A DNA stretch of 38,339 bases from Halomonas chromatireducens. Lineage in GTDB: Bacteria; Pseudomonadota; Gammaproteobacteria; Pseudomonadales; Halomonadaceae. The first letter of the stretch is position 1. The number at the start of each line of letters is the position of its first letter. The translations under genes were made by a program, and so were the position numbers. A model generated the notes under the pieces. It was not told the DNA's origin. It worked only from the letters and a program-made list of their open reading frames with translations, and did not search any database. Shown piece by piece: positions 23,124-38,339 of the stretch. Location: assembly GCF_001545155.1 (NCBI RefSeq), contig NZ_CP014226.1, positions 2,034,777 through 2,073,115 of the forward strand, given 5' to 3'.

Positions 23124-23792
23124 CTAACGGGCCAGCCGCTGGCTCAGCCACTTGCCGATATCGCCGATCTGCTGGGGGCAGACCGCATGGGCCATGGGAT
23201 AGCTGCGATAGTTCGCCGGGTGGCCCAGCGACAGCAGCTTCTCGTAGCCCGCCTTGCCCAGCTGCTCGGGTACCACCGGATCGAAGGAGCCGTGGTGTAC
23301 TTCCGCCGGCAGGTCACGGTTGGCCTCGGCCAGGGGGACGCTGTCGGCGGTGGCGAAATAGGTGGAGAGCGCCAGCAGGCCGCCCAATGGCTCGGGGAAC
23401 GAGAGCGCCGCGTGATAGGCCACCGCGCCCCCTTGGGAGAAGCCGGCCAGAATGATCCGCCGGCTGTCGATGCCGTGGCCGATCTGCTCCCTGATCAATT
23501 CCTGGATGCGCTCGGCGGAGGCCACCAGCTGCTTCTCGTCGACGCGGCGATCGAGACTCATCTCCAGGATGTCGTACCAGGCCGGCATGACCATGCCGCC
23601 ATTGATGGTTACCGGGAGGCGCGGCGCATGGGGCAGGATGAAGCGAACGTTGGCATCGGCCGGCAGCGGCAACGCCGGGACCAGCGGTTCGAAGTCGTGG
23701 CCGTCGGCGCCCAGGCCGTGAAGGATGAAGACGCAGGCATCGGCGGGCTTGCCGCTCTTCGGCTCGATGATCAGTTCATCGTGGCTACTCAT
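23124..23792 (-). CDS. Carboxylesterase/acyl-protein thioesterase-type hydrolase
   Basis: The 222-residue alpha/beta hydrolase belongs to the EstB/carboxylesterase 2 family. The oxyanion turn is LHGLGADG (25-32), the nucleophile S119 lies in GFSQGG, the acid is D171 in GSFDPVVP and the histidine is H202 in PMAHAV. Such enzymes hydrolyse short acyl esters or thioesters in the cytoplasm. There is no signal peptide. It starts at ATG 23792 and is followed closely by the prenyltransferase gene. Confidence 0.88.
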   Translation of the reverse strand: MSSHDELIIEPKSGKPADACVFILHGLGADGHDFEPLVPALPLPADANVRFILPHAPRLPVTINGGMVMPAWYDILEMSLDRRVDEKQLVASAERIQELIREQIGHGIDSRRIILAGFSQGGAVAYHAALSFPEPLGGLLALSTYFATADSVPLAEANRDLPAEVHHGSFDPVVPEQLGKAGYEKLLSLGHPANYRSYPMAHAVCPQQIGDIGKWLSQRLAR

Positions 23793-23870
23793 GAGCTTGG
23801 TTCCAATCTAAGGAATGGGCGAAAAGCGACACCCTATCGTAAAGCCGGGTTCACCGCGAGCAAGCACCGC

Positions 23871-25640
23871 TCAAAAGCCCCAGAACAGGGGGATCAGCGT
23901 CAGCGCCGTGGCCGCCACCAGCAGGTTGAGCAGCCCGCCCACGCGGAGGTAATCGCCGAAACGGTAGCCACCGGGTCCGTAAACCATCAGGTTGGTCTGG
24001 TAGCCGATGGGGGTGAGGAAGCTCGCCGAGGCGGCGAACATGACTGCCACCACGTAGGGCATGGGACTCACCCCCAGGCTTTCGGCGCTGGCCATGACCA
24101 CGGGAAAGACGATGACAGCCGCAGCGTTGTTGGTCACCAGTTCCGTAAGCAGCGCCACCAGCACATAGGTACCGAGCAGTAGCAGCCAGGGGTTGCCACC
24201 GGCGAGCTCCAGTGCCATGCCTGCCAGTATGCCGGCGGCACCGGAACTCTCCAGTGCCGCCCCGAGGCCGAAGGAGGCGGCAATGGTCAGCAGTACCTGG
24301 GTGTCCAGGCCCCGCTTGGCCGCTCCCACCGAGCAGCATCCGGTGACCAGCACCAGCAGGGCACCCAGCATGGCGGCGTTCATCATGCTCATCACGCCGA
24401 AGGTGGCAAGCCCCACCACTCCAAGCAGGATGCTCCAGGCCAGCCAGGCCTTCTCATGCACCGGGCGCGCTGCGCCATTGAGCTGGCTGATCAACAGGAA
24501 GTCCCGGGACTGACGGTGGCGCTCGATGAACGGAGGGCGTGCCTCCAGCAGCAAGACGTCGGAGGGCTGCAGGCGCACCTGCCCCAGGTTGCCGGCGACC
24601 CGCTCACCGCCGCGGCATACGGCCAGCACGGCAGCCCCGTATAGCGTACGGAAGTGGCCATCGCGTATGCGTTGTCCCACGAACTGGCACTGGTCGGAAA
24701 CCACCGCCTCGACCAGCCTGCGCTCCTTGAAATCCTTCTCCAGGCTGGAATCACCATGGAGCGACGGCACCAGCCCGCGAATCTGCTGCAACTCTACTGC
24801 CGCCGCCGAGGTCCCGGCGAAGACCAGCCGGTCGCCGGCCTTGAGCCGCTCCCCCGGCCCCACCACGCTGACGATATTGCCACCACGCTCGATCTCCACC
24901 AGGAACAGCTCCTGCAGGTGCCGCAGGCCAGCCTCCTCCACCGTCTTTTCGACCAGAGGGCCGCCAGGCTCCACCTCCATCTCGATGGTGTATTCCCGGG
25001 GGTTCTCGAAGGCCTGGGTCGCATCACGGCGCTGGGGCAGCAGGCGGTGCCCAATGAAGAGCAGATAGATCAGGCCAACTGCGGCAACAGGGATGCCAAC
25101 CAGGGCGATATCGAATAGCCCCATGGCCAAGTCCGGGTAGCGCTCTACCAGCAGGCCGTGTACCACCAGGTTGGTACTGGTGCCGAACAGGGTAATGGTA
25201 CCGCCCAGGATCGAGGCAAAGCTGAGCGGCATCAGCAGTCGGTGCGCGGGTATCCTCAGGCGCCGACTCCAGCTGAGCACGGCGGGGGTATAGGGGGCCA
25301 CCACCGGCGTGTTGTTGAGAAAGCCGCTGAGCGCCGCGACAGGTATCAGGAGCCGCACGCGCGCACCGCCCGGGGTTCGCGGGCGCCCCAGCACGAAGCG
25401 AATGATCAGATCGATGCCGCCGGTGTCGCGAATGCTCGCCACCAGCACATAGAGAAAGGCCACGGTGAACAGGCCGCTGTTGGAAAAGCCGGCCAGCGCA
25501 TCACCGCTATCGATGACCCCCAGCGTCAGCAGCAGAACCAGGGCGCCAAGCAGCACCATGTCAGGCCCGATCCGCGTCAAGGCCATCAGCGGGAAGACCG
25601 CGATGACAACACTGAGTGCGATCCAGGCGTCGAAGGGCAT
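23871..25640 (-). CDS. SLC13/DASS-type transporter with two internal TrkA-C domains
   Basis: The 589-residue membrane protein consists of two transport halves (about 1-200 and 400-589) around a soluble centre (about 205-385) with two TrkA-C (RCK C-terminal) domains. Conserved ion/substrate motifs are LNNTPVVAPYTP, FGTSTNLVVHG, ELVTNNAAAVIVFP and PIGYQTNLMVYGPGGYRFGDY. Relatives carry sulfate, dicarboxylates or other anions with Na+. TrkA-C domains usually bind ligands that gate transport. It is monocistronic on the minus strand, with GGAA before ATG 25640. Confidence 0.9.
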   Translation of the reverse strand: MPFDAWIALSVVIAVFPLMALTRIGPDMVLLGALVLLLTLGVIDSGDALAGFSNSGLFTVAFLYVLVASIRDTGGIDLIIRFVLGRPRTPGGARVRLLIPVAALSGFLNNTPVVAPYTPAVLSWSRRLRIPAHRLLMPLSFASILGGTITLFGTSTNLVVHGLLVERYPDLAMGLFDIALVGIPVAAVGLIYLLFIGHRLLPQRRDATQAFENPREYTIEMEVEPGGPLVEKTVEEAGLRHLQELFLVEIERGGNIVSVVGPGERLKAGDRLVFAGTSAAAVELQQIRGLVPSLHGDSSLEKDFKERRLVEAVVSDQCQFVGQRIRDGHFRTLYGAAVLAVCRGGERVAGNLGQVRLQPSDVLLLEARPPFIERHRQSRDFLLISQLNGAARPVHEKAWLAWSILLGVVGLATFGVMSMMNAAMLGALLVLVTGCCSVGAAKRGLDTQVLLTIAASFGLGAALESSGAAGILAGMALELAGGNPWLLLLGTYVLVALLTELVTNNAAAVIVFPVVMASAESLGVSPMPYVVAVMFAASASFLTPIGYQTNLMVYGPGGYRFGDYLRVGGLLNLLVAATALTLIPLFWGF

Positions 25641-25761
25641 GGGGTAGTTCCGTCGGAAATTAAGGCCCCATTGTGCCTAACGACACTTATTCCATAAAGA
25701 TATTTGTGGAGATTTATCTATTCGTTAATCGAATATAATGATTTGGTATACCCTCTCAAAA

Positions 25762-25789
25762 AGCAGGGTCCGCTTTCGCGGACCCTGCT
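25762..25789 (-). terminator. Intrinsic terminator of the first cold-shock gene
   Basis: The perfect 12-bp arms AGCAGGGTCCGC and GCGGACCCTGCT enclose a four-base loop, followed on the minus strand by TTTTGAG. It lies 51 bases after the csp stop. Confidence 0.9.
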
Positions 25790-25839
25790 CAGCACTGCCT
25801 GAGGCAGCGCACATCAGATCAAACCGGGTCGGTGAAGAC

Positions 25840-26046
25840 TCAGTCGACGACCTTGATGTTGGAAGCCTGGAGGCCTTTCTTGCCCTGGGTGACGTCGAAG
25901 GAAACCTTCTGGCCGTCTTGCAGGGTCTTGAAGCCGTCAGCCTGGATCTCGGAGAAGTGGGCGAACAGATCGTCGCCGTTGTCGTCCGGAGAGATGAAGC
26001 CGAAGCCCTTGGTGTCGTTGAACCACTTGACAGTACCAGTAGCCAT
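25840..26046 (-). CDS. Cold-shock protein (CspA family), copy 1
   Basis: The 68-residue single cold-shock domain has RNP1 as KGFGFISPD and RNP2 as DLFAHFS, so it should bind single-stranded RNA or DNA and act as an RNA chaperone. It differs from copy 2 at only a few positions (DDNGDD versus DEGGDD, IQAD versus IQVD, KVVD versus KSVD). The start ATG 26046 has GAGGA nine bases upstream; a longer in-frame reading through the leader is not supported. Terminator at 25762-25789. Confidence 0.95.
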
Positions 26047-26170
26047 TGTCGAATGTCCTCGAATAGCATTGTGATTTACCGGGAAATACCCGAGTTGCAG
26101 TGGGTAAGACAAGAAACTGTTCACCGGGAAATCGATGCCATGAGCCTTCGATGACCACTTGCGATGTTCG
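26047..26170 (-). promoter_or_regulatory. Conserved leader of csp copy 1
   Basis: About 125 bases upstream of the start are nearly the same as the leader of copy 2, including the shared block TTACCGGGAAATACCCGAG (as read on the plus strand), which can fold on itself through CGGG and CCCG. Long conserved leaders with thermosensing structure are established for cspA-type mRNAs. A TTGACG (-35-like) lies at 26214-26219 on the minus strand in the same relative place as in copy 2. Confidence 0.6.
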
Positions 26171-26248
26171 TCTTGCTACCAACTGAGCCTAGCTTGGCTC
26201 CTGCGCCTGCAGACGTCAAATGCTAATTCACAAATGCCGAATGCAGAA

Positions 26249-26270
26249 AGGGCTCGCCTGAGCGAGCCCT
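26249..26270 (-). terminator. Intrinsic terminator of the second cold-shock gene
   Basis: The arms AGGGCTCGC and GCGAGCCCT enclose a four-base loop; TTTCTG follows on the minus strand. It lies 42 bases after the csp stop. Its sequence is unlike the copy 1 terminator, so the duplication did not include it or it was replaced. Confidence 0.85.
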
Positions 26271-26311
26271 AACCTGTGCTACCTCGCGGTAGCGCACATC
26301 ATGTCAATCGA

Positions 26312-26518
26312 TTAGTCGACGGACTTGATGTTGGAAGCCTGAAGGCCTTTCTTGCCCTGGGTGACGTCGAAGGAAACCTTCTGGCCGTCTTGCAGGGTCT
26401 TGAAGCCGTCAACCTGGATCTCGGAGAAGTGGGCGAACAGGTCGTCACCGCCTTCGTCCGGAGAAATGAAGCCAAAACCTTTAGTGTCGTTGAACCACTT
26501 AACTGTACCAGTAGCCAT
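26312..26518 (-). CDS. Cold-shock protein (CspA family), copy 2
   Basis: The 68-residue protein is almost identical to copy 1, with the same RNP motifs. It starts at ATG 26518 with GAGGA nine bases upstream. It is the upstream member of a head-to-tail pair that arose by duplication of gene plus leader. Each copy has its own terminator and probably its own promoter, so expression may be independent. Confidence 0.95.
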
Positions 26519-26645
26519 TATCGAATTCCTCGAATAGCGTTAGATGTTACCGGGAAATACCCGAGTTATGCTGGGTAAGACAAGAAACTTTCACCGGGAG
26601 ATCGACGCCATGAGCCTTCGATGACCACTTGCGATGTTCCACTTG
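26519..26645 (-). promoter_or_regulatory. Conserved leader of csp copy 2
   Basis: It aligns over its full length with the leader of copy 1, with about a dozen differences and a few one-base gaps. TTGACG at 26691-26686 (minus strand) could be the -35 element; with 17-base spacing the -10 would read CATTCT, which is poor, so the promoter call is tentative. Confidence 0.55.
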
Positions 26646-26779
26646 CTAACCAACTGGCGCCAAGAATGCGCCTTTGGCAGGCCCACGTCAAACACTATTT
26701 CATCGAAAAGCCTCAAAAGCGACCAAACACAACACCTCCTTGACGGACCGCACCGGCCCGTACTGGGCCTGGGCACGGC

Positions 26780-26798
26780 GCGGTCGTATTACGACCGC
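26780..26798 (-). terminator. Hairpin at the end of the GMC oxidoreductase gene
   Basis: The arms GCGGTCGT and ACGACCGC enclose a three-base loop and overlap the stop codon. No T-tract follows, so termination would need help. Confidence 0.35.
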
Positions 26799-28444
26799 TC
26801 CGCCAGGATCCAGCCTGCCGCCTTCTCGGCAATCATCAGGGTCGGGGAGTTGGTATTGCCACTGGTGATGGTCGGCATGATGCTGGCATCCACCACCCGC
26901 AGCCCCTCGACGCCGCGCACCCGCAGGTGCGAGTCCACCACCGCCGTGGGGTCGTCGTCGCGCCCCATCTTCGCCGTGCCCACCGGATGGAAGATGGTGG
27001 TGCCGATATCGCCCGCCAGCCGTGCCAGCTCGTCGTCTGTCTGATACTCGAGCCCGGGCTTGACCTCCTCGGGACGATACTTGGCGAAGGCCGGCTGCTC
27101 GGCAATGCGGCGGGTGACCCGCAGCGAGTCCGCCGCCACCTTGCGATCCTCCTCGGTGCTCAGGTAGTTGGGCGCGATGGCCGGCGCCTGGCGCGGGTCA
27201 CGGCTCTTGATGCGCACGCTGCCGCGACTGGTGGGATTGAGGTTGCACACGCTGGCCGTGATCGCCGGATAGTCGTGCAGCGGCTGGCCGAAGGCTTCCA
27301 GGCTCAGCGGCTGGACGTGGTATTCAATATTGGGGTGCTCGTACTCGTCGCTGCTGCGGGTGAAGGCGCAGAGCTGGGAAGGCGCCATGCTCATGGGGCC
27401 GGTACGCTTGAGCACATACTCCATGCCGATCTTTGCCTTGCCCATCCAGGAGGCGGCCAGGGTATTGAGCGTCTTGGCCCCCGTGACCTTGTAGACAGAG
27501 CGGATCTGCAGGTGGTCCTGCAGGTTCTCCCCCACGCCGGGCAGCTCGTGTACCAGGGGAATGTCGTGCTCGGCCAGCAGAGACGCCGGCCCGACGCCAG
27601 AGAGCTGCAAGAGCTGCGGCGAGCCGATGGCGCCGGCGGCCAGGATCACTTCACGGGTCGCCCTAACCTGGCTGATGACGCCGTCGCGCTCGAGCTCGAC
27701 GCCGGTAGCACGAGGCTTGCCCTCGCTGCCACTCTCGAACAGCAGTCGGTGTACCTGGGTGGAGTGCCAGAGGACGAAGTTATCGCGCTTCACGCACGTC
27801 GGTCGCAGGAAGGCCTTGGCCGCGTTCCAGCGCCAGCCGCTACGCTGATTGACCTCGAAGTAGTCGACCCCCTCGTTGTCGCCGCGGTTGAAGTCGCGGG
27901 TACGGGGGATGCCGGCCTGCACCGCCGCCTCGGCGAAGTCATCCAGCACCTCCCACTTGAGGCGCTGCTTCTCCACCCGCCATTCGCCGCCATGGCCGTG
28001 GTAGTCGCGGTGTGCGGCGTCCGCATCGCCGCCCTCGTCGAGGCGGTAGTGGTGCTCGTGCTTCATGAAGTCCGGCAGGCAGTTCTCCCAGCGCCAGGCG
28101 TCATCGCCCACCAGCTCGGCCCAGCCGTCGTAGTCCCGGGCCTGGCCGCGCATGTAGAGCATGCCGTTGATGCTGGAGCAGCCGCCCAGGGTCTTGCCCC
28201 GGGGAAAGATAAGCGAACGGCCGTTGAGCCCCTTGTCGGGCTCGGTGCGAAAGCACCAGTCGGTGCGCGGATTGTTGATGCAGTAGAGGTAGCCCACCGG
28301 GATGTGCACCCAGTGATAGTTGTCGCGCCCCCCGGCCTCGATCAGCAGCACCCGGTTATTCGGGTCTGCACTCAGGCGGTTGGCCAGCAGGCAGCCGGCG
28401 GTGCCGGCGCCTACCACGATATAGTCGAATTCCTGCTCTGCCAT
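26789..28444 (-). CDS. GMC-family FAD-dependent alcohol oxidoreductase (choline-dehydrogenase-like)
   Basis: The 551-residue flavoprotein begins with the FAD-binding GAGTAG (12-17) and has the GMC signatures PRGKTLGGCSSINGMLYMRG and GAIGSPQLLQLSGVGP. The catalytic histidine is in TIFHPVGTAKMG and the second active-site residue is the Asn in SGNTNSPTLMIAEKAA. It oxidises a primary alcohol to an aldehyde; the family includes BetA, but betaine genes are absent and the partner here is a CoA-acylating semialdehyde dehydrogenase, so choline need not be the substrate. The start ATG 28444 places MAEQEFDYIVVGAG at the expected N-terminus. It lies 250 bases downstream of mmsA on the same strand. Confidence 0.9.
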   Translation of the reverse strand: MAEQEFDYIVVGAGTAGCLLANRLSADPNNRVLLIEAGGRDNYHWVHIPVGYLYCINNPRTDWCFRTEPDKGLNGRSLIFPRGKTLGGCSSINGMLYMRGQARDYDGWAELVGDDAWRWENCLPDFMKHEHHYRLDEGGDADAAHRDYHGHGGEWRVEKQRLKWEVLDDFAEAAVQAGIPRTRDFNRGDNEGVDYFEVNQRSGWRWNAAKAFLRPTCVKRDNFVLWHSTQVHRLLFESGSEGKPRATGVELERDGVISQVRATREVILAAGAIGSPQLLQLSGVGPASLLAEHDIPLVHELPGVGENLQDHLQIRSVYKVTGAKTLNTLAASWMGKAKIGMEYVLKRTGPMSMAPSQLCAFTRSSDEYEHPNIEYHVQPLSLEAFGQPLHDYPAITASVCNLNPTSRGSVRIKSRDPRQAPAIAPNYLSTEEDRKVAADSLRVTRRIAEQPAFAKYRPEEVKPGLEYQTDDELARLAGDIGTTIFHPVGTAKMGRDDDPTAVVDSHLRVRGVEGLRVVDASIMPTITSGNTNSPTLMIAEKAAGWILAERS

Positions 28445-28600
28445 GACGTGCTCTCTCTCGACATGCCGCCGGCAATCTAGGCCAACAGCAAAGCGTCTCT
28501 TGTAGTACGGCAGTTGATGCCCGTTCGAGGCTGCTCCGAGGGGAAGACCCCGGATCGCCGGACCGTCGATGAGGCGCTGTGAACCCATCCCTGGGCGCTA

Positions 28601-28622
28601 CATTTGCCATCCCTGGCAAATG
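28601..28622. repeat. Inverted repeat between mmsA and the GMC gene
   Basis: The arms CATTTGCCA and TGGCAAATG enclose four bases. It sits in the 250-base gap, without a T-tract, so it could be an operator or a processing hairpin controlling the downstream GMC gene. Confidence 0.4.
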
Positions 28623-28694
28623 ACCTCCTCTTCGGTCTCCCCTCGGCGCCTCTCACTAGCGTCTTTGCCCATGCTGAAGCCTAGTCGGCAGGGA

Positions 28695-30206
28695 CTACTT
28701 ATGGGTCGGCATGGCGAACTCGGCGCCGGCGTTGATCGAGTCCGACCAGCGCTGCATGATCGACTTCTGCTTGGTGTAGAAGCGCACGCCCTCTTCGCCG
28801 TAGGCGTGCGTATCGCCGAACATGGAGCGCTTCCAGCCGCCGAAGCCGTGCCAGGCCATGGGTACCGGGATCGGTACGTTGATGCCCACCATGCCCACCT
28901 GAATGCGGCGACCAAATTCGCGCGCCACGCTGCCGCTTTCGGTGAAGCAGCTCACGCCGTTGCCGAACTCGTGGTCGTTGATCAGCTGGATTGCCGTGGC
29001 GATATCGGGCACCCGCACGCAGGCCAGCACCGGACCGAAGATTTCCTCGCGGTAGATGGTCATCTCCGGGGTGACGTGATCGAACAGCGAGCCGCCCATC
29101 CAGAAACCCTCGGCGCAGCCCTCGCCGGTCGTGGCGCTATCGAAGTCACGGCCGTCGACCACCAGTTCGGCACCCTCTTCCACGCCCTTGTCGATATAGC
29201 CGGTGATGCGCTGGTGTGCCTGAGCGGTGACGATGGGCCCCATCTCGGCATCGAGCTCCATGCCGTTCTTGACCTTGAGCGACTTCGCCCGCTCGGCCAG
29301 GCGCGGCACGATCTGATCGGCCACGTCGCCCACCAGCACCGCCACGCTGATCGCCATGCAGCGCTCGCCGGCGCTGCCGTAGGCGGCACCGATCAGGGCG
29401 TCGACGGCCTTGTCCAGATCGGCATCGGGCATCACCACCATGTGGTTCTTGGCGCCGCCCAGGGCCTGGACACGCTTGCCGTGATGCGCACCCCGCTCGT
29501 AGATCAGGTTGGCGATGGGGGTGGAACCGACGAAGGAGAGCGCCTTGACGTCTGGGTGTTCGATCAGCGCCTCGACCGAGGCCTTGTCGCCCTGGACCAC
29601 GTTGAACACGCCATCGGGCAGGCCCGCCTGCTTGAGAAGGTCGGCGATCAACAGCGAGGGGCTGGGGTCGAGGGGGCTCGGCTTGAGGATGAAGGTGTTG
29701 CCGGCGGCGATGGCCAGCGGGAACATCCACATCGGTACCATCACCGGGAAGTTGAAGGGAGTAATGCCCGCCACCACGCCCAGCGGCTGGCGCATCGTCC
29801 AGTTGTCGATGCCGGTGCTGACCTGCTCGGTGTAATCGCCCTTGAGCAGCTGCGGGATGCCGCAGGCGAATTCGACGATATCGATGCCGCGAGCCACCTC
29901 GCCTTGGGCGTCGGTGAATACCTTGCCGTGCTCGGCGGTGATGGCCTGGGCCAGCTCATCCTTGTGGGCGTTGAGCAGCTCCAGGAAACGGAACATCACC
30001 CGGGCGCGGCGAATCGGCGGGGTATCGGCCCAGCTCGGGAAGGCGGCCTTCGCCCCTGCCGCGGCGCGGTCGACGTCGGCCGAACCGGCCAGGGCCACCT
30101 GACCGGTCACCTGGCCGCTGGCGGGGTTGGTCACCGCCCGGCGCTGGGGGGCCTCGGCCGCGATACGCTGGCCGTCGATATAGTGATCGATATTGGTCGT
30201 TGTCAT
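28695..30206 (-). CDS. mmsA: CoA-acylating methylmalonate-semialdehyde dehydrogenase
   Basis: The 503-residue aldehyde dehydrogenase converts methylmalonate or malonate semialdehyde plus CoA and NAD+ to propionyl- or acetyl-CoA and CO2, in valine, beta-alanine or inositol breakdown. The catalytic cysteine is C283 in GERCMA. The usual ALDH general-base glutamate is replaced, the region reading QALGGAKNH, which is characteristic of the CoA-acylating MmsA/IolA branch. [18 protein letters not shown] is also typical. TGAGG lies eight bases before ATG 30206. It diverges from the LysR-type gene, which probably regulates it. Confidence 0.95.
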
Positions 30207-30306
30207 AATGGTTGCCTCAGTTCGATGCGTTCTGCCAGGAAATCTGTGCTAGCTACCAGAGTAACGCGCTACTCGTGGCAATCAATTGAGTAATTCCTAA
30301 CCAGGA

Positions 30307-30323
30307 TATAAGCTTTTCTTATA
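30307..30323. promoter_or_regulatory. LysR-type (T-N11-A) binding site candidate
   Basis: The palindrome TATAAG-CTTTT-CTTATA contains a T-N11-A core typical of LysR-type regulator sites. It lies in the 171-base divergent region, 54 bases before the LysR start and 100 bases from the mmsA start, a usual position for autoregulation plus activation of the divergent gene. CTTATAATA could also serve as a -10 element. Confidence 0.6.
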
Positions 30324-30377
30324 ATACAGGGGAGACCCCTCCCCCCCGCCCCTCCCTTCTTCTCCCTGGAGCGCGCC

Positions 30378-31784
30378 ATGCAGGACCTGCAAACCCTCCG
30401 CGCCTTCATCACCGTGGCACGGGAAGGCAGCGTGTCCCGCGCCGCCGAAAAGCTCCACCTGACCCAGCCGGCGGTCAGCCTCAAGCTCAAGCAACTGCAG
30501 GAAAGCCTCGGGCTGGCCCTATTCCAACGCCGCCCCCAGGGCTTGAAGCTGACCGCCGATGGCTACGCCCTGCTGCCCGCCGCCGAAAGGACCCTGGCGG
30601 CCATGGCCGCCTTCGAACAGAGCGCCCAAGCACTCCACAGCACGCTGCGCGGACGGCTGAAGATCGGCACTATCGTCGACCCGGAGTTCATCCGGCTGGG
30701 TGCCTTCCTGCACCGGCTGGTGGGTCGCGCACCCCAGCTTGAGACAGAACTACAGCACGGCATGAGCGGCAGCGTATTGAAATGGATCCGGCGCGGCGAG
30801 CTGGATGTGGGGTTCTATCTGGCGCCATCGGGCGAGGGGCCGGGAGACGATTCGCAGGATGTGGCGCACCGGGAACTGACACAGTTTCACTACCACGTGA
30901 TCGCCCCCGCCGGCTGGAGCGGGCGACTTACCCGCACCGACTGGCCGAGCCTGGCCGCCCTGCCGTGGATCGTGACCCCGCAGGAATCCGTCCATCACCG
31001 GCTGCTGCAGGGTGTGCTGCAACCCCAGGGGCTTGCCCCCAATGGCGTGGCCCAGGTGGATCAGGAGGCCTGCATGCTGGACCTGGTGCGCGCCGGCGTG
31101 GGGCTCAGTCTCGCCCGCGATGCCCTGGCCATGGCCGAGCGCCAGGAGCGTGGCCTGGTGGTGGTCGAAGGGGTTCGCCTGCCCTGCTCGCTGAACTTCG
31201 TCTGGCAGCACCAGCGCGGCGATGAACCCGTCATCGTCATGGCGGAATGCAACGAAGACACCAATGCATCGCTTGACGACAAGGCACTTGTAGGACGCGC
31301 CGAGTGGATTGGCTTGCCCGACATAGGCACTTATCTTAGGGCTCGTGTCGATTCCGGTGCCAATACGTCCTCTCTTTCAGCCAAGGACATCACCCGTTTC
31401 GAACGCGATGGCGAAGATTGGGTGCGTTTCAGATTGGGCATCACTGATGACGATATCGTGGTCGACAAGGTCCGCAACGAATGGATCGAGGCGCCTGTCG
31501 AGCGGCGCGTACGCATCGTGCAGGCCGCCGGCAGCGAATCGCGTCCCGTTGTCAGCCTGCTGATGACCCTGGGGTCGATTCGCGAGCCGGTTGAGTTCAC
31601 CTTGAATGACCGCACCCATCTCAACTTTCCCGTACTGCTGGGACGCCGATTCCTGATGGATATCGCGCTGATCGATGTCGCCGAGACTTACCTGCATCCA
31701 AGACCCGAATTCCCCGGAGGTCGACCTGCTGCAGAGGCGGAGCAGGACGATCTCAACGATCAGGAGGAGGAAGACGCTGAATAG
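30378..31784 (+). CDS. LysR-type regulator fused to a retropepsin-like (RimK-associated) protease domain
   Basis: One uninterrupted 468-codon frame holds two proteins. Residues 1-287 are a LysR regulator: winged helix-turn-helix at 1-60 (TFITVAREGS-type helix, HLTQPAVSLKLKQLQ) and a substrate-binding domain at 88-287, cut just before the usual last helix. Residues 288-468 are a retropepsin-like aspartic protease of the COG4067/PF05618 type (often named ATP-dependent zinc protease), with the catalytic motif DSGANTSSL (D325) and LNFPVLLGRRFLMDI. Such proteases are normally separate genes beside ATP-grasp ligases. An in-frame ATG at 31239 (residue 288) could start a free protease, but no clear ribosome-binding site precedes it. 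GGAG lies eight bases before ATG 30378. The next two genes are the protease's usual partners. Confidence 0.85.
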   Translation: MQDLQTLRAFITVAREGSVSRAAEKLHLTQPAVSLKLKQLQESLGLALFQRRPQGLKLTADGYALLPAAERTLAAMAAFEQSAQALHSTLRGRLKIGTIVDPEFIRLGAFLHRLVGRAPQLETELQHGMSGSVLKWIRRGELDVGFYLAPSGEGPGDDSQDVAHRELTQFHYHVIAPAGWSGRLTRTDWPSLAALPWIVTPQESVHHRLLQGVLQPQGLAPNGVAQVDQEACMLDLVRAGVGLSLARDALAMAERQERGLVVVEGVRLPCSLNFVWQHQRGDEPVIVMAECNEDTNASLDDKALVGRAEWIGLPDIGTYLRARVDSGANTSSLSAKDITRFERDGEDWVRFRLGITDDDIVVDKVRNEWIEAPVERRVRIVQAAGSESRPVVSLLMTLGSIREPVEFTLNDRTHLNFPVLLGRRFLMDIALIDVAETYLHPRPEFPGGRPAAEAEQDDLNDQEEEDAE

Positions 31785-31814
31785 CGGCGCCTCCAGCCCC
31801 AACAAGGAAGCTTC

Positions 31815-33320
31815 ATGTCACGATTGCCCTTCTATCTTATTGTAGGCTTGCTGATGGTGGTGGGCATCGGCATGAGCGTGCATCGGCACGTCCAGTTCGA
31901 GGTTCCCTGGACCCAGGGGGAGCAGCGAACAATATGGGAAGTGGAAGCAATCATCGATTTCACCGCCCTGGGCGATCCGGTACGCGTGGACCTTGCCCTG
32001 CCCCAACATCAGCGCGGCTATCGCCTCCTGACCGAGAATACGGCCTCACCGGGCTATGGCCTGTCGTTTCTCCAGGACGAAACCGGTCGCCGCGCCCAGT
32101 GGTCGATACGTGAAGCGGCCGGCAGCCAGCAACTCTACTACTCGGCGCGCCTGCTGGTGACAGAGGACCGACGTCAGCGTGAGTTGCCAGTGCCCCCCCT
32201 GCGCGAAGTGATCTGGGAGCGCCCCTACGATACTGCAGCCGCCCAGGTAATCGAGCGCGCCTGGACTCGAAGCGCCGACCCCTACACCTTTGCCCGCGAG
32301 CTGATTCATGACTTCAGCGAGGATCGTCAGGGTGAAAACGCCCGACTCCTGTTGACCCAGTTCGATCGCAGTACGCTGCTGGTCAGGCTGCTGAACCAGG
32401 CCGGCGTCCCCGCGCGCGAAGCCAGCGGGCTGCTCCTTGAAGACGGACGTCGCCGCCAGACGCTTACCCCCTGGATCCAGGTCTTTGCGGGCGAAGACAA
32501 TTGGTCAATCTTCAACCCGACAACCGGGCAACAGGGACAACCCGAGAACCTGCTGCTGTGGGAGAGCGGCGGTCGTGCCGTACTGGAGGTCCAGGGAGGA
32601 ACCAACTCCCGGGTGACCTTCTCGATGCTGTCACGCAATCAGCCTGCCGCCGCCGCCGTGCGCAGCCAGCTGGCCGATGACACCCTGCTGAATTTTTCTA
32701 TACATAGCCTCCCTCTCGAAGAGCAGGCCCTGTTCCAGACCATTCTGCTGATTCCGATCGGCGCGCTGGTTGTGGTTTTCCTGCGGATCATGGTGGGAAT
32801 CAAGACCTCCGGCACCTTCATGCCGGTGCTGATCGCACTGGCCTTTATCCAGACTACCCTGCCCACCGGGCTCATCGGCTTTCTCCTGATCGTTGCCGTC
32901 GGCCTGGTAATCCGAAACTACCTTTCCTATCTCAACCTCCTGCTGGTCGCGCGAGTGTCGGCGGTGATCATCACGGTCATCGCCATCATCTCGATCTTCT
33001 CGGTGCTCTCTTACCGCGTGGGCCTCAATGCCGGGCTGACCATCACTTTCTTCCCGATGATCATCCTTGCCTGGACCATCGAGCGTATGTCGATCCTTTG
33101 GGAAGAGGAAGGTCCCAAGGAGGTGCTCATTCAGGGTGGTGGCAGCCTGGTCACGGCCGTATTGGCCTACCTGGCCATGAACAACCCCTGGATCCGCCAC
33201 ATCACCTTCAATTTTCTTGGCGTTCAGCTCATCATCATGTCGCTGATCCTGCTGCTCGGGAACTATACAGGGTACCGCCTACTCGAATTGCGGCGCTTCA
33301 AGCCTGTTACCGAGGACTGA
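31815..33320 (+). CDS. Inactive transglutaminase domain fused to seven membrane helices
   Basis: The 501-residue protein has an N-terminal membrane helix (about 5-22), a periplasmic region (about 25-300) with a transglutaminase-like fold and seven helices at the C-terminus (about 312-495). The transglutaminase part includes ERAWTRSADPYTFARELI, LNQAGVPAREASGLLL and WIQVFAGEDNWSIFNP. The usual catalytic Cys is absent: the expected active-site helix begins GENARLLLTQFDRS. This matches the family described as inactive transglutaminase plus 7TM, predicted to work with an ATP-grasp ligase and a retropepsin. AAGGAAG precedes ATG 31815. It lies 30 bases after the fused regulator-protease and four bases before the ligase gene. 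Confidence 0.85.
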   Translation: MSRLPFYLIVGLLMVVGIGMSVHRHVQFEVPWTQGEQRTIWEVEAIIDFTALGDPVRVDLALPQHQRGYRLLTENTASPGYGLSFLQDETGRRAQWSIREAAGSQQLYYSARLLVTEDRRQRELPVPPLREVIWERPYDTAAAQVIERAWTRSADPYTFARELIHDFSEDRQGENARLLLTQFDRSTLLVRLLNQAGVPAREASGLLLEDGRRRQTLTPWIQVFAGEDNWSIFNPTTGQQGQPENLLLWESGGRAVLEVQGGTNSRVTFSMLSRNQPAAAAVRSQLADDTLLNFSIHSLPLEEQALFQTILLIPIGALVVVFLRIMVGIKTSGTFMPVLIALAFIQTTLPTGLIGFLLIVAVGLVIRNYLSYLNLLLVARVSAVIITVIAIISIFSVLSYRVGLNAGLTITFFPMIILAWTIERMSILWEEEGPKEVLIQGGGSLVTAVLAYLAMNNPWIRHITFNFLGVQLIIMSLILLLGNYTGYRLLELRRFKPVTED

Positions 33321-33324
33321 CACC

Positions 33325-34326
33325 ATGTGGGCAAGACCTAGCCAATTGCTGGAGCGCGGTATCATCGGCATGAACCGCCGCAACATTCGCTACATCGGTC
33401 GCTACAACGACCGTCGGCTCTACCCGCTGGTGGACGACAAGCTGCAGACCAAGCTGCTGGCCGAGCGGTACGGCATCACGACGCCGGCGCTGATCAGCAC
33501 CGTGACGACTCAGTTCGGCATCAAGCAACTGCAGAAGATGGTGGCGGGACACGAAGGCTTCGTCATCAAGCCCGCCAAGGGTAGCGGCGGCAAGGGTATC
33601 CTCGTCATCGACCGCATCGATGGCGACGGCTTCATCAAGCCCAGCGGCGTACGCCTGGAATTGAAAGACCTCGAGCGACACGTCTCCAACATCCTGTCAG
33701 GGCTCTATTCACTGGGCGGCACCCCGGACGTAGCGATGATCGAAGCCCTGATCAACTTCGATGAGCACCTCTCCGAGTACACCTACGAAGGTGTGCCGGA
33801 CATCCGCGTCATCATCTTTCAAGGCTACCCGGTGATGGCCATGATGCGCCTTTCCACTGCCGCCTCCGACGGCAAGGCAAACCTTCATCAGGGCGCCGTG
33901 GGGGTGGGGCTCGACATCGCCTCGGGTACCGCCGTGCGGGGCGTGCAGTTCGATCGCCCGCGGCGCGAGCACCCCGATACCGGACACGAGCTGGCCAGCC
34001 TGCTCATACCCGACTGGCAAAATCTATTGGAGCTGGCCGCCGGCTGCTTCGAGATGACCGGGCTTGGCTACCTCGGCACTGATATGGTGATTGACCGCAA
34101 CCGCGGACCCATGCTGCTGGAGCTCAACGCCCGCCCCGGCCTCGCGATCCAGATGGCCAATGGGGAAGGCCTGCGTTCACGCCTGGACCTGATCGAAAAG
34201 CAGCCTGCCGGCCTCGGTGTGGCAGAGCGCGTAGCCTTTGCCCAACTGCACTTTGCTCGCTGTGGAGAGCTTAAGAATATGGCTCCTCGCCCCCAGCCGC
34301 TGGCCGCCCCTCTGTCCAGCGCGTAG
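33325..34326 (+). CDS. ATP-grasp protein, alpha-L-glutamate ligase-like
   Basis: The 333-residue ATP-grasp enzyme has a glycine-rich nucleotide loop (FVIKPAKGSGGKGILV, about 80-95) and the metal-binding LLELNARPGLAIQMAN near 258-273. It belongs to the RimK-related branch that joins an amine to a carboxylate with ATP, but its substrates are unknown. The N-terminus (MNRRNIRYIGRYNDR) is typical of the family found beside 7TM-transglutaminase proteins; in-frame ATG 33370 is an alternative start. With only four bases from the previous stop, co-translation is likely. Confidence 0.87.
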   Translation: MWARPSQLLERGIIGMNRRNIRYIGRYNDRRLYPLVDDKLQTKLLAERYGITTPALISTVTTQFGIKQLQKMVAGHEGFVIKPAKGSGGKGILVIDRIDGDGFIKPSGVRLELKDLERHVSNILSGLYSLGGTPDVAMIEALINFDEHLSEYTYEGVPDIRVIIFQGYPVMAMMRLSTAASDGKANLHQGAVGVGLDIASGTAVRGVQFDRPRREHPDTGHELASLLIPDWQNLLELAAGCFEMTGLGYLGTDMVIDRNRGPMLLELNARPGLAIQMANGEGLRSRLDLIEKQPAGLGVAERVAFAQLHFARCGELKNMAPRPQPLAAPLSSA

Positions 34327-34358
34327 AATGGGACAATCTTCCCAGCATCGGGTCACCC

Positions 34359-34811
34359 ATGACCGATTCACATAGCCTGCTGCAACAGGCAGAAAGACAG
34401 TGTCAGCGCCACGGAGTACGCTTCACCCCGATTCGCAGGCGCGTCCTGGAAATGATCGCCGGAGCCACCGGTGGCATAAAGGCCTACGACCTTCTCGACC
34501 GCCTGGCCGTCGAGCATGCCGCCGCTCGCCCCCCGACGATCTATCGCGCCCTCGACTTCCTGATCGAGCAAGGTCTGGTGCATCGCATCGAGTCGCTGAA
34601 CGCCTACGTGGCCTGCCCCTGCCCCGAACATGCACACGGCTTTCAGCTGCTGATCTGTCGCCATTGCGGTCGGGTCGAGGAACTGCATCTGGATGAGGTC
34701 AACGATCAGCTCAACACTCAGGCGCGCCATTTCGGCTTTCGCGTCGAACGCCAGACCATCGAGCTGCTGGGTAGCTGTGATGTCTGTCTAAAGGCCACTG
34801 CTCGCGCCTGA
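34359..34811 (+). CDS. zur: Fur-family zinc uptake regulator
   Basis: The 150-residue Fur-family repressor has a DNA-binding winged helix (about 20-80, with PPTIYRALDFLIEQGLVHRI). Its structural zinc site is C100/C103 (CRHCG) and C140/C143 (CDVC). Its regulatory zinc site includes H75, a cysteine of the ACPCPEHAHGF segment and E108. The pattern matches E. coli Zur rather than Fur. It would repress zinc-uptake genes when zinc is sufficient. It lies 32 bases after the ligase-like gene and 39 bases before hisI. Confidence 0.87.
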   Translation: MTDSHSLLQQAERQCQRHGVRFTPIRRRVLEMIAGATGGIKAYDLLDRLAVEHAAARPPTIYRALDFLIEQGLVHRIESLNAYVACPCPEHAHGFQLLICRHCGRVEELHLDEVNDQLNTQARHFGFRVERQTIELLGSCDVCLKATARA

Positions 34812-34827
34812 CGTCAGTGCCCGAGCT

Positions 34828-34840
34828 CAATACCGTATTG
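34828..34840. promoter_or_regulatory. 13-bp palindrome before hisI
   Basis: CAATAC-C-GTATTG is a perfect palindrome ten bases before the hisI start. It does not match the known gammaproteobacterial Zur box. Given the zur neighbour it is a candidate operator, or simply part of a promoter (TATTGT). Confidence 0.35.
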
Positions 34841-34850
34841 TGGAACCGTT

Positions 34851-35303
34851 ATGGTCAATACCTTCAAGGAACTCGAACGGGCCGAGCTCAACGCACAACG
34901 CCCCCTAACCGCGATTCTTGCTGCCATCCGCTTCAACGCCGACGGCTTGATCCCCGCCATCGCCCAACAGCATGACAGCGGCGAGGTGCTGATGATGGCG
35001 TGGATGAACCGGGAGGCGCTGGAAGAAACGCTGGATACCGGCAGGATCTGCTACTGGTCGCGCTCGCGGAACAAGCTGTGGCGCAAGGGAGAGTCCTCCG
35101 GCCAGCAACAGCACCTGCGCGACGCCCGCCTCGACTGTGACGGAGATACCCTGCTGCTGCAGGTGGAGCAAACCGGTCCCGCCTGTCATACCGGGCGGCG
35201 CAGCTGCTTCTACGTGGCGCTGGAGAATGACGTCGCGCGGATCAATAGCGAGCCACTGATCGACCCCGATACGCTCTACCAGAAGCCCCAGGAGGGACGC
35301 TGA
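34851..35303 (+). CDS. hisI: Phosphoribosyl-AMP cyclohydrolase
   Basis: The 150-residue enzyme opens the purine ring of phosphoribosyl-AMP in histidine synthesis. All motifs are present: [25 protein letters not shown], the metal site DCDGD (95-99), and the zinc ligands C96, C112 and C119 (ACHTGRRSC). There is no HisE domain and no other his gene nearby. The extra N-terminus (about 1-25) is longer than usual. In several bacteria a second hisI belongs to the Zur regulon as a back-up for zinc starvation; the zur neighbour makes that possible, although its zinc ligands are intact. yidD follows after three bases. Confidence 0.9.
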
Positions 35304-35306
35304 GCG

Positions 35307-35657
35307 ATGAATTGCCTGGCAGCCTGGCTCCATCGACTGGGGCGTCTGCTGGCTCGCGGGCTCGGCCTGCTCATGCTTGGCCTGGTGAAGCTCTACCAGA
35401 TCACCTTGAGCCCCTTGCTGGGTCCCCGCTGTCGCTTCTGGCCCAGCTGCTCCCACTACACGGCGGAAGCGATCAAGATTCACGGGGCGTTCAAGGGAGG
35501 CTGGCTGGCCGCTCGCCGAATCGTGCGCTGCCACCCGGGTAGCGAAGGTGGGATAGACCCGGTACCCGGCGGGCCCAGCGAGCAGCTGTGCCGCGACGAC
35601 CCTGAGCTCGACCAGGACTTCCGCTGCCGTTGCACCGGACATGCTTCGGAGCGCTGA
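35307..35657 (+). CDS. yidD: Membrane protein insertion efficiency factor
   Basis: The 116-residue YidD protein has an N-terminal amphipathic/hydrophobic segment and the core [30 protein letters not shown] and [20 protein letters not shown]. YidD helps YidC-dependent membrane insertion. It normally lies between rnpA and yidC; here it follows hisI, so it may be relocated or a second copy. A C-terminal extension of about 30 residues with three cysteines ([16 protein letters not shown]) is unusual. Confidence 0.9.
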
Positions 35658-35782
35658 AGCCCTACTGTCATCTCTGAATCATGGATACCCTGTAGTAGCC
35701 CGCTAACACCCTCCTTCAGCTCGGCCGTGCCAGACTGGTCAACGGCAACCCAACCACAACGAGCCGATCAGGAGATACGCCA

Positions 35783-36364
35783 ATGTCCGCCAAACGTTTG
35801 CTCTTGCTATGTGGCGATTTCGCCGAAGACTACGAGACCATGGTGCCTTTCCAGGCCCTGCAGGCCGTGGGGCATCGTGTCGATGCCGTGTGTCCCGACA
35901 AGCGGGCCGGCGACAGCATTGCCACCGCCATCCATGACTTCGAGGGCGACCAGACCTACACCGAGAAGCCGGGACACCGCTTCACCCTCAATGCCGATTT
36001 CGCGGATATCGATCCCGCCGAGTACGACGGCCTGGTGATTGCCGGCGGTCGCGCCCCGGAATACCTGCGCCTGAACGACAAGGTCATTCAGCTTGTGCGT
36101 CATTTCTTCGATACCGACAAGCCGGTGGCGGCGATCTGTCACGCAGCCCAGCTTCTGGCGGCCGCCAGGGTACTGGAAGGCCGCACCTGCGCAGCCTACC
36201 CTGCTTGCCGCCCCGAAGTGGAGCTGGCCGGCGGGCGCTACGCCGACATCGCCGTGGACGATGCCGTGACCGATGGCAAGCTGGTCACCGCCCCGGCCTG
36301 GCCTGCTCACCCAGCGTGGCTCGCCCAGTTCCTGGTCGTTCTCGAGACACGCATCGAGCTATAG
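35783..36364 (+). CDS. DJ-1/PfpI family protein
   Basis: The 193-residue protein has the PfpI/DJ-1 fold. The nucleophile C119 is in [10 protein letters not shown] and the conserved glutamate is E18 in FAEDYE. Members act as glyoxalase, deglycase, protease-like or chaperone proteins; the exact role here is unknown. An AGGAG eight bases before ATG 35783 supports the start. It is monocistronic. Confidence 0.9.
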
Positions 36365-36487
36365 GCGCCAATCCGAAAGGCTCCCAGGAAGGGTTCTTAA
36401 GCGAGGTTCACTTCCAGCCACTTGCCCTGGCTCGCGCCCGACGCCATGATGGAAATGTCGGCCGGGCCAGCGAGGGAGGGAAACGGC

Positions 36488-36895
36488 ATGTGCAGACTAT
36501 TCATCGGCGCAGAGCCGGGTCTCTGGCAGCCTCAGACCCGCTCCATGCGGCTCGACGGGGTCTCCACCAGCGTTCGCCTGGAACGCTTCTTCTGGGCGGT
36601 ATTGGAAGAGGTCGGCAGGCGCGACGGTCTCACGCTCAATCAGCTGGTGGCGAAGCTCTCACGGGAATGCACGGAAGCCGGACATGACCCCGCCAACTTC
36701 GCCTCCTTCCTGAGAGTCTGCTGCGGGCGCTATCAGGCACTGCAACTGGCGGGTGAGATACCGGTCGCGACTGACGTCTCGATCGGTAGCCTGGATGCCG
36801 AGGGTATTCTTGCGCGGGAGCGGGTGCGCCACATCGCGGCGCGCCCCGCGGCCTCGCGTCAGGCAGAGGCCGCCTCCCGCGCCGCCACTTCGTAG
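36488..36895 (+). CDS. Ribbon-helix-helix domain protein
   Basis: The 135-residue protein contains an aryl-sulfate-sulfotransferase-associated type ribbon-helix-helix (RHH_4) domain: TRSMRLDGVSTSVRLERFFW forms the ribbon and first helix. FASFLRVCCGRYQAL follows and an Ala-rich tail ends it. It is likely a DNA-binding regulator. ATG 36488 is chosen over the upstream in-frame ATG 36422 because GGAGGG lies seven bases before it and MCRLF matches the family start. Its 3' end overlaps sufE on the other strand by 37 bases. Confidence 0.8.
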   Translation: MCRLFIGAEPGLWQPQTRSMRLDGVSTSVRLERFFWAVLEEVGRRDGLTLNQLVAKLSRECTEAGHDPANFASFLRVCCGRYQALQLAGEIPVATDVSIGSLDAEGILARERVRHIAARPAASRQAEAASRAATS

Positions 36896-37290
36896 ATCGT
36901 CTTCAGCATGGCGTGCAGCCCGTTGCTGCGCGTCGGCGAGAGATGCTTGTCCAGGCCCAGGTCCTGCATGAAGTGCGGGCTTGTGGCGCAAATCTCCCCA
37001 GCGGGGCGTCCGCTGTAGATGCGCAGCAGTACCGCAATCAAGCCTGACACGATGGCCGCATCCGAGATGGCATCGAAGTGGAGCATGTCCCCCTCGCGCC
37101 GATAGTGCATCCAGACATTCGACTGGCAGCCCTGGATCTTGCGCTCGGGCGTCTTCCACTCCTCGGGGAACGCCGGTAGCTGCTTGCCCATGTCGATGAT
37201 GTACTGGTAGCGATCCATCCAGTTGTCGAACATCTCGAACTCATCCAGCAATTCCTGCTGCGCCTGTTCGGCGGTGGCTTCAGTCGTCAT
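36859..37290 (-). CDS. sufE: Cysteine desulfuration protein SufE
   Basis: The 143-residue sulfur acceptor takes persulfide from the desulfurase SufS and passes it to the Fe-S scaffold. The active cysteine is C55 in KIQGCQSNVW. The N-terminal FDNWMDRYQYIIDMGK helix and the LLRIYSGRPAGEI segment are typical. sufS is not adjacent. GGAG lies six bases before ATG 37290. It lies 27 bases downstream of the recombinase chimera and converges on the RHH gene. Confidence 0.93.
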   Translation of the reverse strand: MTTEATAEQAQQELLDEFEMFDNWMDRYQYIIDMGKQLPAFPEEWKTPERKIQGCQSNVWMHYRREGDMLHFDAISDAAIVSGLIAVLLRIYSGRPAGEICATSPHFMQDLGLDKHLSPTRSNGLHAMLKTIYEVAAREAASA

Positions 37291-37317
37291 GGGAACTCCG
37301 TGGTTGGCATGTGCCCA

Positions 37318-38339
37318 TTATACCGATTCATCCAGGGGTTCGTCCGCCCCAACCGGCAACCCGTGCAGCGATGACTGGCGATGCCACTCCTCATCCTCGG
37401 CGTGCAGGTAGCGAGCCGTGGTATCCAGTCGGGAGTGCCGCGCGGTACTCGCCAGGTAGCGAAGCTCCACGCCGGCCTGGGCCTGGTGCGTCAACGCCGT
37501 ATGCCGCAGCCAGTGAGGTGTCGCTTGCCGCAGCCGCTGCACCTGCGCCTTGCCGCCCTGCTCGGCTTCCAGGGCCTCGGCGGCATCGCTGAAGGCTTCG
37601 CGAATCAGGCGATAGAGCTGGTTGTCGCCCAGGCCGCGGCGCCCATTCAGGCCGCGCAGCAACGGCGTATCCTCGCCGGACTCCGGCAAGGGTGCCAGGC
37701 CCAGGCCGGCTCGCCACTCCCCCAGCAATGCAAGCATGTCCTGCGGCACGGGAATGTACGCTAGCTTGTCGCCCTTGCCCACGACCCGCCACCACCAGCG
37801 CCCTTCCCGCATGACGAAGTCATCCATGCGTGTCGCCGCCATTTCACTGATCCGCGGCGCCAGAAGGTAGGCGAAGCCGAAGATCATGCGACGTCGAGAA
37901 CGATTGAAGCGCGCCTTCGCACCGGCACCCTCCTCCAGCGGCCGTTCCAGCCATTGCCACAGCCACTCCCACAGCGGGCGCTCCAGGTAGCGCTCGATCC
38001 TGGACTGGCGGTTGTCGAGGCGACGGCGCTTGTCACGCATCAGGCGGAAGGGATTGTGTGCCACCCAGCCCGCCTCGACCAGCCAGGCAAACAGGCCCTG
38101 AAGAATCACCAGGCTCTGCCGACGACTGGCCGGTGACAGCGGTCCGCGAAACGGACGCCACTCCGGGGAATGCCTGGGTCTCGGTGTCAGTATCCAGTCG
38201 TCTCGCCGCTCTTCGGCCCAGCGGCCGGCAAGCAGATTGAGGCCGTCGGCATCCACCACCAGAGGCAATCCTGACATCAGCGATGACTGGAGCATGCCCT
38301 GTCCCCAGGCGCCCTGCCCAAGCCCCGGCCCCACCACAA
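37318..38339 (-). CDS. Chimeric ORF: NnrD (NAD(P)HX dehydratase) fragment fused to tyrosine recombinase; runs off window
   Basis: The open frame enters from the window edge. Its first 50 or so residues match the middle of NAD(P)HX dehydratase (YjeF C-terminal/NnrD): VVGPGLGQGAWGQGML, GLPLVVDADGLNLLA and DWILTP. At about 38160-38187, where NnrD should continue with TPHPGE, the sequence switches in frame to RHSPEWRPFRGPLSPASRRQ, the inside of a tyrosine recombinase, and stays so to the end. The catalytic residues are visible: R in APRISEM, K in GKGDKLAYIP, HWLRHT, RHSRLDT and Y in TARYLH. Both proteins are therefore incomplete: the recombinase lacks its N-terminal arm-binding part and NnrD its C-terminal half. 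It may be a real deletion fusion or an assembly join. Confidence 0.8.
   Translation of the reverse strand, partial: VVGPGLGQGAWGQGMLQSSLMSGLPLVVDADGLNLLAGRWAEERRDDWILTPRPRHSPEWRPFRGPLSPASRRQSLVILQGLFAWLVEAGWVAHNPFRLMRDKRRRLDNRQSRIERYLERPLWEWLWQWLERPLEEGAGAKARFNRSRRRMIFGFAYLLAPRISEMAATRMDDFVMREGRWWWRVVGKGDKLAYIPVPQDMLALLGEWRAGLGLAPLPESGEDTPLLRGLNGRRGLGDNQLYRLIREAFSDAAEALEAEQGGKAQVQRLRQATPHWLRHTALTHQAQAGVELRYLASTARHSRLDTTARYLHAEDEEWHRQSSLHGLPVGADEPLDESV

Follow-up and report, generated by a model that had tools for sequence, protein, structure and literature searches.

The frame at 30378-31784 (+ strand) of the window, which is the whole 38,339-nucleotide stretch that was analysed (G000:C1:2034777-2073115, where G000 is the Halomonas chromatireducens record), raises the question of whether a LysR-type regulator and a retropepsin-like protease are truly joined in one gene. 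The frame was open over 468 aa and contained no internal stop. Pfam placed HTH_1 at residues 4-62, LysR_substrate at 89-284 and Zn_protease (PF05618) at 305-442. The open frame, the Pfam matches and the presence of the DSGANTSSL motif confirmed the first-pass annotation in reading a LysR protein and a retropepsin-like protease in one frame, and the two domains are no chance reading. A frameshift at the join was ruled out, the frame being intact across 31212-31236; once such a join exists, its in-frame state is a 1 in 3 matter. That annotation had proposed either a regulator-protease linking the mmsA regulon to a ligase system or a deletion fusion in one strain, and the data supported it in part, coming nearer to the one-strain fusion and not supporting the regulator-protease link.

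The two halves of the frame had different origins. In blastn comparisons with the same-genus relative G005, contig C2 was colinear with window 23405-31236 (90.7%) and contig C7 with window 31212-38183 (87.6%). The change of origin at 31212-31236 fell within the two parent genes rather than at the edge of either, and the window bases resembled the lysR relatives to the left of the join and the rloA relatives to its right. The parts of the frame and the divergent neighbor are as follows:

28695..30206, - strand: mmsA-type methylmalonate-semialdehyde dehydrogenase, divergent from lysR (TIGR01722, 679.4 bits; same neighbourhood in G005)

30378..31236, + strand: LysR-family regulator, residues 1 to about 286 (blastn against G005:C2; Pfam HTH_1 and LysR_substrate; separate proteins in relatives)

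31212..31236, + strand: the join, 25 bp, of which lysR and rloA of G005 share 22 bases and the reading frame; the exact core is 11 bases

31237..31784, + strand: RloA-type retropepsin (PF05618), starting near native codon 103 (blastn against G005:C7; DSGANTSSL kept)

The LysR part carried both the HTH_1 and LysR_substrate domains (Pfam) of a LysR-type regulator and did not have the native C-terminal end of its orthologs, the last 13-21 residues of the relatives' proteins (299 aa in the lysR locus L109, 307 aa in G005) being replaced. Of 15 lysR loci of relatives, the 9 that were in the correct orientation encoded 300-307 aa; the remaining 6 rows came from the opposite strand and were left aside. 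Among the matches listed, LysR-type regulators of Halomonas, Billgrantia and Marinobacter shared up to 96% identity over residues 1-289; they differed from the fused frame in being 295-322 aa long with no protease match (best 120 listed). The mmsA-side neighbourhood of lysR was common to the window and G005. On this side, two similar copies of about 390 bp were found in tandem (25795-26185 and 26314-26700), also present in G005; in other frames these copies could, on reading, encode putative minus-strand cold-shock proteins, and the one frame translated had stops and no cold-shock protein.

A pot-like operon was directly 3′ of lysR in two loci of relatives (L108, and L109 from H. alkalisoli) and about 4.7 kb beyond lysR in G005; with the L109 region as the query, it was found in G000 at 1530130 (1.53 Mb). 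The G005 region downstream of lysR matched G000 only at lysR and at three places of 34-48 bp (40 of 122 candidates scored), and 737 bp of L109, comprising the lysR end and what follows, had no match in G000 among the 40 of 176 first-look candidates scored. At G000 ~1530125-1530130 (L212:10126-10131), an amino-acid-ABC-ATPase-like gene broke off in its middle, close to the SGGQ motif, and ran into the pot-like permease gene, which was likewise cut.

The protease half contained a PF05618 domain with a D[ST]GA active site (126 bits, cut-off 27; DSGANTSSL) and was followed directly by rloB-like and rloC-like genes, the RloB model scoring under its own cut-off:

31815..33320, + strand: rloB-like, inactive transglutaminase with 7 TM helices (PF14400, PF14402; NF052267, 340.9 bits, below the cut-off of 900)

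33325..34326, + strand: rloC-like, alpha-L-glutamate-ligase-like ATP-grasp (TIGR02291, 434.9 bits against a cut-off of 314.2; PF14397)

With the whole fused protein as the query, the scores were below the curated NCBIfam cut-offs for RloA3 (NF052264, 122.2 of 210), RloA2 (108 of 250) and RloA (84.8 of 280), and the name RloA rests on resemblance because the best NCBIfam match, RloA3, was under its cut-off. The domain, the D-S/T-G-A site and the neighboring rloB-like and rloC-like genes are shared with the secreted proteases RloA, RloA2 and RloA3 of Pseudomonas aeruginosa (PMC12239564), whose signal peptides point to a periplasmic or extracellular location; the window's protein differs from these in that a LysR stands where they have the signal peptide and the greater part of the N-terminal linker. 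Solved structures of RloA relatives are 9g59, 9g58 and 2pma. RimB, the cytosolic retropepsin of the RimK system, is likewise a PF05618-type protease with no signal peptide (PMC11957791), whereas the fused protein scored 90.4 bits with the RimB model, under the cut-off of 200. Two more G000 loci resembled the protease part (3329612-3330028 and 2339044-2339445; 36 and 40% identity). These might serve as a backup for a lost RloA, and the locus at 3329612, with one TGA counted within the match, may at a guess be RimB.

The intact RloA of G005 has 282 aa (L039:8329-9177) and starts with a lipoprotein-like signal (LLISGC). Met 31239, which had been taken as the start of the protease, proved to be an internal residue of the linker that follows the lipoprotein-like signal. 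It corresponds to codon 103 of the G005 protein, which is Arg there, while G009 has Met. The RloA part in the window has lost this signal and most of the linker, and the fused frame showed no N-terminal signal peptide. A lipobox-like site was found in all 17 RloA orthologs read, out of the 22 genomes that have an ortholog; these signals were called by pattern (16) or by eye (L041), not by a signal-peptide program. In one of the 17 (L029), the stretch read had no D[ST]GA.

The two genes were separate in the relatives. A LysR ortholog was found in 15 of 24 other genomes of the same genus (71-95% identity) and a protease ortholog in 22 of 24 (62-87%). All 14 genomes with both genes had them apart, on different contigs in 10 and 0.88-1.10 Mb apart on the same contig in 4. 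A simple deletion between adjacent lysR and rloA was ruled out, since the two were neighbors in none of these 14 relatives. The suggestion of a fusion in one strain is thus closer to the data, but a deletion does not account for it, as the genes come from distant places.

The fusion was found only in this assembly within what was searched; together with the separate genes of the relatives, this is the outcome that the first-pass annotation had named as refuting its proposal. A listed match across the join was present in G000 and in none of the 89 other genus genomes (90 searched of 400 asked), 60 of which matched one half, or both halves at separate places. The protein search covered 5.8 billion clustered proteins and scored 7998 candidates; the best 120 of 3246 hits, among which the window's own protein was absent, covered no more than 65% of the query, and none spanned the join or showed the two-domain architecture. 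In the genome-contig search, from which records of this genome or very near ones may be left out, the 80 loci kept, from 260 confirmed, had matches within residues 1-301 only. The genus genome searches and the genome-contig search ruled out that the fusion is usual in the genus, and among the matches listed no second genome or protein record had it. No LysR-retropepsin fusion was named in the titles or abstract openings of the papers listed by the literature search, and the term LysR was absent from the main text of the Rlo paper (PMC12239564).

These data bear on whether the frame might encode a working regulator-protease, in which LysR would sense a ligand and LysR oligomers would assemble a cytoplasmic retropepsin, a reading we consider very improbable. 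The main motifs are kept in both domains. RloA proteases are described as dimers that cleave RimB substrates in vitro (PMC12239564), so that two protease halves could in principle be brought together in a LysR oligomer. That such a retropepsin would trim the acidic tails which the downstream ATP-grasp ligase makes is scarcely to be expected. The fusion was not found elsewhere among the relatives, the best protein hits and the contig loci listed; the orthologs are secreted and the signal is lost here; the LysR C-terminal end is cut; and the surrounding record is chimeric. The proposed link between the mmsA regulon and the ligase system was not supported, given an architecture not found in the relatives searched or the best protein hits, a secretion signal that is cut off, and a record with several chimeric joins. 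It is highly unlikely that a real one-strain rearrangement made a cytoplasmic LysR-retropepsin whose oligomerisation drives the dimerisation, and with it the activity, of a normally secreted protease under mmsA-type inducer control.

A different possibility is a real, very recent rearrangement in this one strain, in which microhomology-directed repair or template switching put the rlo block beside lysR. We regard this as unlikely; the homology at the join speaks for it. The bases match at 22 of 25 positions, the join peptides in G005 are QRGDEPAI (lysR) and QRGEEPVI (rloA), and the lysR locus L108 has 17 exact bases in common with G005 rloA at the join. At three other joins in the record the homology was 1, 2 and 4 bp (by eye; two with G005 as a parent stand-in). 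In a Salmonella study, longer junction homology marked true rearrangements and not ligation chimeras, with verified cut-offs of 8-12 bp (PMC3411829). The join is also mid-contig and not at an N, the completeness score of the genome was 99.99%, and no second assembly of the species turned up; together with the greater homology (11 or 17 exact bases, 22 of 25), this counts against an artefact. The product of such a rearrangement would be a clipped LysR of doubtful activity that carries a protease with no signal peptide, the secreted RloA being lost, an outcome to which we give little probability. Single and double rloA deletions of P. aeruginosa showed normal growth (PMC12239564), and loss of one RloA could therefore be borne; the two further G000 loci similar to the protease part are in keeping with this rearrangement as well.

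The missing start of rloA was detected elsewhere in the record. Codons 1-24 were located at G000 2018247-2018318, a distance of 47.7 kb ahead of the join, and the preceding DNA was colinear with the rloA locus of G005; 207 bp of G005 rloA had no match in G000 among the 40 of 81 first-look candidates scored. The displaced codons were followed by 1785 bp of single-copy DNA, which by its letters reads as mrp-like antiporter genes plus a P-type ATPase end, then by an exact 115-bp copy of G000 958954-959068 (FAD-oxidase-like by reading) and an exact 106-bp copy of G000 3507601-3507706 (M16-peptidase-like by reading), and after these by the recombinase locus that in G005 comes after the rlo block. 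The scar from which the rlo block is missing corresponds to L065:12248-14324 (G000 2018247-2020323). The far end of the block in the window was formed by two further parts:

37318..38181, - strand: tyrosine-recombinase-like C-terminal part (name from the letters), the end of a block of about 7 kb with rloABC in G005

38182..38337, - strand: exact 156-bp copy of an nnrD-like gene part (name from the letters), source G000 ~886.5 kb, with two bases between it and the N at the window's edge

Together, 37318-38337 (-) formed a second in-frame chimeric ORF at the contig end, with an nnrD-like start and the tyrosine-recombinase-like C-terminal part. Under a rearrangement, the pieces of 115, 106 and 156 bp could be templated insertions at the scars, a doubtful reading even though small exact inserts and microhomologies of 1-4 bp resemble break-repair scars. 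The inserts are exact copies, and thus nothing shows them to be older than the sequencing. Several unrelated genes would also have to be cut at once.

The record itself was made of pieces. The window was flanked by single Ns at G000 2034776 and 2073116, and the next Ns were at 2090738, 2099223, 2107678 and 2110464, which indicates pieces of 38.3, 17.6, 8.5, 8.5 and 2.8 kb strung together. With those at 954145, 963777, 1404655 and 1520544, ten single Ns were counted in 207,006 G000 bases, in stretches chosen around joins and thus no random sample, compared to 2, each of them in G005, in 554,797 bases of other genomes. All 4 Ns tested had exact copies (34-207 bp) of unrelated loci next to them: 2073116 had one of 156 bp to its left and none to its right; 2034776 had two to its left (34 and 45 bp) and only 82-99% copies to its right; 2107678 had 159 bp to its left and 127 bp to its right; and 2110464 had 207 bp to its left and 157 bp to its right. 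Such N flanks are the expected look of chimeric reads or forced contig joins. Similar pieces flank all four of the contig-joining Ns tested, and at these an origin in assembly or library is the simpler explanation, which argues against the rearrangement.

Chimeric junctions occur in draft assemblies and libraries. The record resembles these in its short, exact, unrelated pieces, which are joined with 1-4 bp overlap and also occur beside single-N joins, whereas the lysR-rloA join differs in its longer homology and its two long partners. 454 ligation chimeras were described in the Salmonella study (PMC3411829). Because the other joins in the record also cut genes mid-way, with exact copies beside Ns, we favour an artefact: the LysR-RloA frame is probably an assembly or library chimera, falsely joined in the record, and most likely no real regulator-protease gene exists behind it. 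A small share of probability is kept for a real rearrangement because of the longer homology at the join and the Salmonella criterion.

The record is a set of pieces strung with single Ns and no finished chromosome, the window being one such piece. If the join is false, a stretch of about 7 kb, from rloA codon ~94-103 to part of the recombinase gene, would have been attached to the clipped lysR end via the 25-bp chance resemblance of lysR and rloA, and its other end would have been capped by the 156-bp nnrD-like copy. We infer that the error arose in the library, amplification or assembly, not in the cell. A defective assembly or library is one cause that explains the displaced pieces, the copies, the Ns and the join, which, like the separate genes in relatives, are direct observations. 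The living cell most likely has lysR and rloA as separate genes, both intact; the LysR regulator would stand beside mmsA, and a secreted RloA lipoprotein would head rloABC.

A tempting new domain architecture is thereby removed as probably false. Since this one-contig record holds several chimeric joins, other fusions, truncations and odd neighbourhoods in it need to be checked against relatives. Were the join genuine, a cytoplasmic regulator would have captured a secreted protease, which is rare; even then, the simplest result of the rearrangement would be that the secreted RloA is lost and LysR is clipped.
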